This document shows, piece after piece, positions 32,918 through 34,043 of a stretch of DNA of 64,000 nucleotides. Source of the DNA: Byssovorax sp. (lineage in GTDB: Bacteria > Myxococcota_A > Polyangia > Polyangiales > Polyangiaceae); NCBI GenBank assembly GCA_025362495.1, contig JANYGI010000092.1, forward strand, positions 1 through 64,000, given 5' to 3'. The notes below the pieces were generated by a model. The model saw nothing but the letters and a program-made list of their open reading frames with translations. It had not been told where the DNA came from and did no database searches. The position numbers and the translations under genes were made by a program. Numbering within the stretch: position 1 is the stretch's first letter; each line of letters begins with the position of its first letter.

Positions 32918-32947
32918 GTCGATGTCGATGTCGATGTCGATGTCGAG
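32918..32947 (+). repeat. Hexamer tandem repeat (GTCGAT)n
   Basis: Four perfect GTCGAT units (32918-32941) and a fifth ending in G. It sits between the sulfatase-like gene and the FAD-oxidoreductase remnant, directly after the hairpin CGCGGGCG...CGCCCCGCG (32893-32918). Simple-sequence tracts of this kind are prone to slippage. Confidence 0.8.
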
Positions 32948-32995
32948 TCCAGGCCGGCGTTGCCAGCGCGCGCGCCTGCCTGCTAAGGTCGCATC

Positions 32996-33798
32996 ATGGC
33001 GCGTGTAGAGTCCGCGAGCGTGGTTGTCATCGGTGGTGGACCGGCCGGCTGCACGGCGGCCACCCTCCTGCAACAGGCCCGCTCCGACGCGCGGATCGTG
33101 CTCATCGAGCGGATGGTCTTCCCGCGCCAGCACATGGGCGAGTCGCTCTTGCCGGACTCCAACCCGGTGCTCGCCCGGCTCGGCGTGCTCCAGAAGGTCA
33201 AGGGAAAGAGCAGATTTACCGCCCCCGGGTGGACTGCAGTCCTTCGGGCGAGCCCGACGTGGCCCGCACCGTCGCCGCGCTGGAGAGCGTGCTCGCCACG
33301 ACGGAGGTCACCTGTGCTTTCGGCGACATCGGCGGCGACATCCGTCGTCGCGGCCAGGCCGGCGAGCTGAGCACGCCCGCGCGGGGCGTGGTCCAGGACC
33401 TCTTGCGGATGAAGCTCCTCGCGCCGGGCGGCGCGCCGATGGTGCTGCGCGACGCCGCGAGGAGCATTGAAGATCGGGGCCAGATCGTCAAGCGCGCGTT
33501 CACGCGCGTCGAGCCGACACCGCACCAGGACATCTCGTTCGCCGACGAGCCCCCGAGCTTCACCCTGGTCACCTTCACCCTCGGCGGAGTGAAGCAGAGC
33601 TATCGTCCCGCGCCAGGACGACTCGCCTACGTCAAAGCGTTGCTCGACGCCACCGACGGTCGCCGCTCGGTCGAAGAGGTGGTGCGCGAGGCCCGGCGGC
33701 GCATCGGCGCGGGCGACGACCGCGACGTGCACGACGCCGTCAACTCCTTGCTGGTCGATCTTTTCCACCTGGGGGCGCTCACGCTCGCCCCGCGCTGA
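32996..33798 (+). pseudogene. Decayed FAD-dependent oxidoreductase/halogenase remnant joined to a second coding fragment
   Basis: The first ~70 codons (frame of 32996) encode the start of an FAD-dependent monooxygenase or halogenase: VVVIGGGPAGCTAATLL (GxGxxG dinucleotide motif) and FPRQHMGESLLP, then ARLGVLQKVKG. From about 33205 natural-looking protein continues in another frame: EQIYRPRVDCSPSGEPDVAR, on to a helical C-terminus (SVEEVVREARRRIGAG, VNSLLVDLFHLGALTL) ending at 33798. The bulk of the oxidoreductase (normally 350-550 residues) is missing. The simplest reading is an internal deletion that fused two fragments out of frame. The second fragment resembles regulatory C-terminal domains but is not identified. 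A hairpin follows at 33812. Confidence 0.7.
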
Positions 33799-33885: not shown

Positions 33886-34043
33886 TTGGAGCGTCTCACA
33901 AAGCCTCCCGTCGCCGCCCGGCGGATCCGCGGCGCTCGCCTGCGTTGCTCGGATTCGACGTGCATTCGCACGCCTTCATCCTCGCGCCTTGGCGAGCTTG
34001 CGGCTCCTTGGCCGGCTCGGTCCGGTTTTGTGAGGCGCTCCAA
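33886..34043. repeat. 158-bp fold-back (long imperfect palindrome), MITE-like or structured RNA
   Basis: The ends are 20-bp inverted repeats with 18 matches: TTGGAGCGTCTCACAAAGCC (33886-33905) against the complement of GGTTTTGTGAGGCGCTCCAA (34024-34043). Inner segments continue the pairing on the same axis: 33923-33940 with 33991-34007 (about 14 pairs), and CGTGC (33959-33963) with GCACG (33968-33972) around an ATTC loop at the exact centre. It lies in the 284-bp gap between the oxidoreductase remnant and the SGNH gene, ending 39 bases before the ATG at 34083. It could be a miniature inverted-repeat element, an IS remnant or a hairpin RNA. No target-site duplication was clear and no second copy was seen in this window. 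Confidence 0.7.

Follow-up and report, generated by a model that had tools for sequence, protein, structure and literature searches.

A fold-back element between a halogenase remnant and an SGNH gene

The window, by which we mean the whole 64,000-nt stretch of Byssovorax sp. DNA analysed, contains a 152-bp fold-back element that carries no transposase gene and, as a sequence-only reading of this DNA had noted, no coding feature. To its left lies the remnant of a tryptophan-halogenase-like flavoprotein gene (32996-33370, plus strand; the PF04820 match is confined to the first 65 residues), after which comes an ORF with no Pfam match (33229-33798, plus strand). Together, these two adjoining the element look like a decayed or fused gene; just before the remnant, a short ORF reading SMSMSMSMSS (~32920-32960) forms a small tandem repeat. 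To its right, 42 bp lie between the element and a possible start codon (ATG, 34083) of an SGNH (GDSL-lipase-like) ORF.

The sequence-only reading had described a fold-back of 158 bp whose ends match as inverted repeats in 18 of 20 positions. We recovered this match, between 33886-33905 (TTGGAGCGTCTCACAAAGCC) and the reverse complement of 34024-34043 (TTGGAGCGCCTCACAAAACC), as well as the inner blocks reported to pair on the same axis, which close on a hairpin at ~33957-33974. The fold-back stands, but the edges had to be moved inward: comparison with sister copies placed the element proper at GAGC...GCTC (Table 1), with the outer TTG and CAA belonging to the flank. Compared with dinucleotide shuffles (n=200), the plus strand folded at -98.7 kcal/mol (z -5.9) and the minus strand at -99.3 kcal/mol (z -6.75). 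Both strands of the window copy, almost equal in fold energy, were thus ~6 to 7 SD better than the shuffles, none of which (0/200) folded as well on either strand, in line with the earlier claim that the symmetry is beyond chance. No run of T, the mark of a Rho-independent terminator, follows the hairpin in the window copy.

Table 1. Coordinates of the element and its parts in the window
Feature	Position	Strand	Basis
Whole element, 152 bp	33889..34040	- (family-favoured 'sense' strand)	Edges from sister copies; strand from mismatch bias and fold energy
Left terminal arm GAGCGTCTCACAAAGC, IS5-type end	33889..33904	+	Same type as ends of IS5-family IS in So ceGT47
Right terminal arm, GAGCGCCTCACAAAAC on minus strand	34025..34040	-	Inverted-repeat match and sister copies
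Core cassette, 120 bp, CGGACCGAGC to GCGACGGGAG on minus strand	33905..34024	-	Retained between copies and between genera despite changing arms
Internal loop, 5' side, CGGACCGAGC	34015..34024	-	Invariant or nearly so in alignment A2
Internal loop, 3' side, GCGACGGGAG	33905..33914	-	Invariant or nearly so in alignment A2
Middle loop, 5' side, CAAGGCGCGA	33982..33991	-	Conservation in alignment and enrichment over shuffled cores
Middle loop, 3' side, GAGCAACG	33943..33950	-	Conservation in alignment and enrichment over shuffled cores
Apical hairpin at midpoint	33957..33974	-	Fold and pairing analysis

Read along the sense strand, which is the minus strand of the window, the order is arm (16-19 nt), CGGACCGAGC, stem, CAAGGCGCGA, apical hairpin, GAGCAACG, stem, GCGACGGGAG and arm. 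On this strand the conserved internal loops are CGGACCGAGC/GCGACGGGAG and AAGGCGCGA/GAGCAACG.

The element has many relatives in its own and other genomes

BLAST against the 10.8-Mb draft genome from which the window comes, the check proposed with the sequence-only reading, found more than 20 further copies, most of them aligning over almost the full 152 bp at 82-95% identity; by a covariance model (R1), the genome holds 23 strong copies, all told. The sequence-only reading had staked its claim against a lone copy of ordinary fold energy, and the element is neither. Aligned, the own-genome copies consist of a conserved core and variable arms. The arms are mostly GAGCGCC(TC/GA)ACAAAAC, with GAGCCTATCCCGGTAG-type arms in L014, L015 and L018, GAGCACATGAAGGAACG in L019 and GAGCGCCTGACAAA in a few, and are self-complementary whatever their sequence. 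One own-genome locus, L023 (C218), is a derivative element from which the apical half of the core is deleted.

R1 also matched elsewhere in the order, for a total of 28 of 184 genomes with the own genome included, many of them multi-copy. Among these are Minicystis rosea (CP016211; 16,040,666-bp chromosome) and Sorangium cellulosum So ceGT47 (NZ_CP012670), in which a second covariance model (R2) gave 34 and 33 matches, respectively, the weakest being uncertain. The spread outside the order comes from a scan of GTDB genomes for the exact pattern CGGACCGAGC-N88..118-GCGACGGGAG, which listed at least 108 places. Record titles for these matches include Anaeromyxobacter, Sandaracinaceae, Ca. Binatia, Elusimicrobia and Planctomycetota; many are metagenome bins, so that taxa are given by label only. 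Using features outside the search pattern, namely complementary arms and the middle loops, we judged ~67 of 80 inspected loci to be genuine, while 13 look like chance, having no complementary arms. Arm complementarity was often 14-18 of 18 positions and lower where the arms are shifted by one base. Of 34 representative cores, 16 contained CAAGGCGCGA with no more than one mismatch and 18 likewise contained GAGCAACG; the corresponding shares of shuffled cores were 0.4% and 6.6%. A search of viral contigs, phages and plasmids gave no match to the element.

In Minicystis rosea (G140:C1), the stronger copies are oriented in long blocks, one way from ~3.8 to 9.6 Mb and the other way in most of the rest. 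A replication-strand bias, as if these blocks were linked to replichores, was rejected given that So ceGT47 lacks the pattern and that local GC skew over 140 copies shows none.

The ends and target sites are those of IS5-type transposition

At 152 bp, with 16-bp arms and ~23 dispersed copies in its own genome, the element has the format of a MITE, one of the options raised in the sequence-only reading. So ceGT47 provides the corresponding IS: six copies of an IS5-family element (Pfam PF13340 and PF01609; NCBIfam NF033580 above cut-off), one of which is complete, with the ends GAGCGCCTAACAA and TTA/TTA as its duplication. It lies immediately next to a MITE copy, and another of the IS copies likewise adjoins one (the abutting pairs are at L137 and L136). 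The IS and the MITE diverge after ~16 bp, which led us to reject internal deletion of this IS as the origin of the element; likewise, the earlier option of an IS end-relic falls, since the overlap with the IS is limited to these ~16 bp and does not extend into the core. In another genome (G042), IS5-family transposase genes are accompanied by an end, TAA-GAGATGGTTTCAAAAC, that is similar to the MITE arm GAGCTGGTTTCAGAAC.

Among 137 family elements, 55 are flanked by target duplications, TNA in 39 and TA in 16, mostly within CTNAG or CTAG. In G042 an element begins exactly at the stop codon of secA, and in a congener (G043) secA is followed by the same gene but the element is absent, that is, the site is empty. 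Collectively, the MITE option is borne out by the multiple copies, the IS5-type ends, the duplicated targets of fresh copies, the unoccupied site in a congener and the complete IS of a relative, and a MITE superfamily apparently mobilised by IS5-type transposases is well supported by these comparisons.

The window copy itself has no target duplication (TTG/CAA flanks), and no NF033580-type or matching transposase was detected in its genome, a 240-contig draft in which absence is not proof. A Minicystis IS with 12 near-identical matches was considered and rejected, as its ends differ (CTAGAGACC...). The family in the window's genome appears orphaned, and the window copy is best read as old and orphaned, with no duplication left.

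Elsewhere in the family, L174 (G044:C11:275811 region) contains at least 19 regularly spaced repeats, ~73-75 bp apart, with GAGACGCGCCCAGTT, in what resembles a CRISPR array. The repeat of this array differs at no more than two positions from the MITE arm found in that genome (GAGACGCGACCAAGT), a likeness that may be due to chance.

The core is conserved in its loops and covaries in its stems

Across 29 diverse copies, 38 pairs were formed in 88.7% of cells, compared to 34-41% with slid partners, and double-sided changes numbered 251, compared to 81 in shuffles. Most of the invariant columns fall in the loops and in the short pairs that separate them, and the junction of arm and core is constant to the base in most copies. 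That loops stay unpaired while stems covary supports selection of the core as a folded strand.

Which strand folds can be read from the mismatches. Pairing the two halves by Watson-Crick matches only, a procedure that treats both strands alike, we counted single core-stem mismatches on the sense strand of 53 clusters and found 42 G.T versus 9 A.C, and 58 purine-purine versus 17 pyrimidine-pyrimidine. Neutral decay predicts equal classes, and the excess of G.T(U) over A.C on the minus strand thus points to the minus strand as the folding strand. Likewise, for 49 of 50 representatives the sense strand gave the better predicted fold, both with RNA parameters (mean -98.3 versus -82.8) and with DNA parameters, a result that is due in part to the conserved loops themselves. 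From these data we infer that the core acts as a folded single strand, which may be RNA or single-stranded DNA.

Could the core instead be functionless filler, inherited by an ordinary MITE family whose loops look conserved from recent spread or horizontal transfer? The 82-95% identity of copies within the genome would fit, and bacterial MITEs in general form stable stem-loops (PMC10969869, PMC2229807). Between genera, however, both sides of the stems have diverged and the loops are unchanged, and recent spread would have kept the stems too. With the mismatches also being strand-biased, we consider this explanation unlikely and favour selection on the folded strand.

Palindromes can be corrected from arm to arm, and such neutral, hairpin-mediated conversion would keep stems complementary without any selection for folding. 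Rare derivatives with closed loops do exist, at L086 (G049, ~975-1133) and L100 (G171), where the outer loop has turned into a perfect pair. Yet repair of this kind should close loops generally, and they are open and unchanged in nearly all copies; it also predicts no strand bias, contrary to the 42 versus 9 mismatches. Neutral repair could be the source of part of the covariation, though as the whole explanation we find it improbable, and selection on the folded core again accounts better for open loops and biased mismatches.

In many own-genome and So ceGT47 copies (L003, L135 and others), the two arms differ from each other, and do so alike in both genera: the sense-left arm is GAGCGCCGAACAAAAC and the right arm GAGCGCCTCACAAAAC or GAGCGCCTCTCAAAAC, giving a tandem G.A mismatch in the folded arm stem.

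The same core is found between unrelated arms

Two copies in the window's genome, L003 and L014, have 96% of the core in common but unrelated arms. The reverse is seen between L003 and the So ceGT47 loci L137/L225, for which 19 of 19 bases of the sense-left arm plus duplication are identical, while the cores are only 66% identical. In a tree of the inner core, the three GAGCCTATCCC copies of this genome fall inside a supported clade (97/92) with ordinary-arm copies; this nesting indicates that arms were replaced while the core lineage continued. GAGCCTATCCC-type arms are also found on different cores, in the own genome, in Minicystis and at L251. Gradual co-evolution of the arms with one IS was rejected as it does not give both patterns of exchange.

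On a wider scale, the ~120-nt cassette is found repeatedly with arms that differ completely, in Myxococcota and, judging by record labels, in other phyla. What is preserved may thus be the folded core and not the ends, and a conserved core with unrelated ends goes beyond what the sequence-only reading could have seen. One tentative extension, to which we give somewhat less than even weight, is that the folded core would itself be the selfish unit, an RNA or single-stranded DNA parasite of transposases that has been repeatedly re-equipped with resident IS5-type ends.

Insertion at stop codons is probably explained by the target site

Many copies lie no more than 8 bp from the stop codon of an adjacent ORF, ~29 genes reading into the sense strand and ~35 into the antisense strand, in an approximate tally for which ORFs were called by a simple GC3 rule and related copies were all counted. 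In comparable DNA only ~10% of CTNAG/CTAG sites are at stops, and the copies are there about five times more often, again by a rough count. Duplication of TNA restores a TAA or TGA stop, such that insertions at stops are harmless; the target motif and the stop-restoring duplication thus explain the position without a host function. A family-wide tally showed no orientation preference of copies towards neighbouring genes, and regular transcription of the sense strand by read-through is therefore not assured.

A hairpin retained after stops for the benefit of the host, as a terminator or mRNA stabiliser, would also place copies at stops, and the excess over CTNAG/CTAG sites at large is in its favour. 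We nevertheless consider it very unlikely, since the abutted genes are divided about evenly between the two orientations (29 versus 35) though the two strands fold differently, the secA site is not common to the congener, and the target motif with its duplication already accounts for the position. The proposal in the sequence-only reading of a long-hairpin RNA in the SGNH leader, taken here as a regulator of that gene, draws on the 42-bp distance to the possible ATG and is scarcely credible, given that the element has many dispersed sister copies, which adjoin unrelated genes with no preferred orientation to them, and that SGNH transcription would yield the strand not favoured in the family.

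A model for the element

The window element is probably an old MITE copy in which two IS5-type arms surround a conserved, strand-specific fold-back core. A resident IS5-family transposase, binding the arms, would have moved the element in trans. As the target motif often overlaps a stop that the duplication restores, harmless insertions would survive. The core would work as a folded single strand (the minus strand of the window) with purine-rich, G.A-type loops, which may be kept because the folded RNA or single-stranded DNA binds a widespread factor aiding movement or persistence; the simplest guess is that this widespread partner belongs either to the host or to transposition. When a genome gains another IS5-type transposase, the same core could acquire the ends of that IS; a plausible candidate route is copying of the new end by fold-back around the hairpin, by which the two arms would come to match in a single step.

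The usual view of a MITE is that it derives from a single IS, to which it is tied by sequence; here, the core seems to outlive many ISs and to change its ends abruptly. Its loops are kept across distant bacteria though it encodes nothing, which makes what a folded core does for a non-autonomous transposon a testable question. The model also offers a target-site effect, rather than terminators, as the explanation for hairpins exactly at stop codons in GC-rich genomes.

Comparison with known systems

Rfam 15 gave no match to the window region at E 1 and, for eight family loci, only a tRNA and sub-threshold chance matches; no published description was found in the open-licence literature. In integron attC sites, one strand of an imperfect palindrome folds, and stems vary while unpaired features are kept. 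The likeness to our element is in this way of working only: by eye it has no attC boxes, there is no integron context, and it has target duplications of the transposase type in place of site-specific recombination.

We take the ends and the TNA duplication to match the IS1031-like group of the IS5 family. A three-nucleotide target site is a feature of the IS1031 group (PMC2516522). The So ceGT47 transposase is NF033580, whereas the element has no transposase and only its terminal ~16 bp are common to the IS.

Like other bacterial MITEs (PMC10969869, PMC2229807), the element is shorter than 200 bp, multi-copy and mostly intergenic, and has terminal inverted repeats, target duplications, a stable stem-loop, no transposase and ends matching an IS of the same or a related genome. 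Unlike them, it is GC-rich, its core is kept across distant bacteria by loops with covarying stems, and this core recurs with unrelated ends, not tied to one parental IS. The Correia/NEMIS elements of Neisseria (PMC2229807) are similar in size (~100-155 bp), inverted ends and intergenic insertion, and their transcripts fold into long hairpins. However, they are AT-rich with TA ends, restricted to Neisseria, contain IHF and promoter motifs (PMC2229807), and have no known exchange of ends or conservation of loops across phyla.

The nearest published analogue, as far as the main text describes it, is the class of mobile or repeat structured candidates such as MRSC-65-2 (PMC11109978), which share a single long stem, strong covariation, many copies per genome and occurrence in diverse phyla, are sometimes near transposase genes and have inconsistent orientation to genes. 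The hallmark UYCCGG repeat in the description of MRSC-65-2 differs by eye from the loops CGGACCGAGC/GCGACGGGAG and AAGGCGCGA/GAGCAACG. That main text names no myxobacterium, and identity with one of the 250 candidates in the set is possible. Its authors suggest that the structure of such candidates may matter as DNA (PMC11109978).
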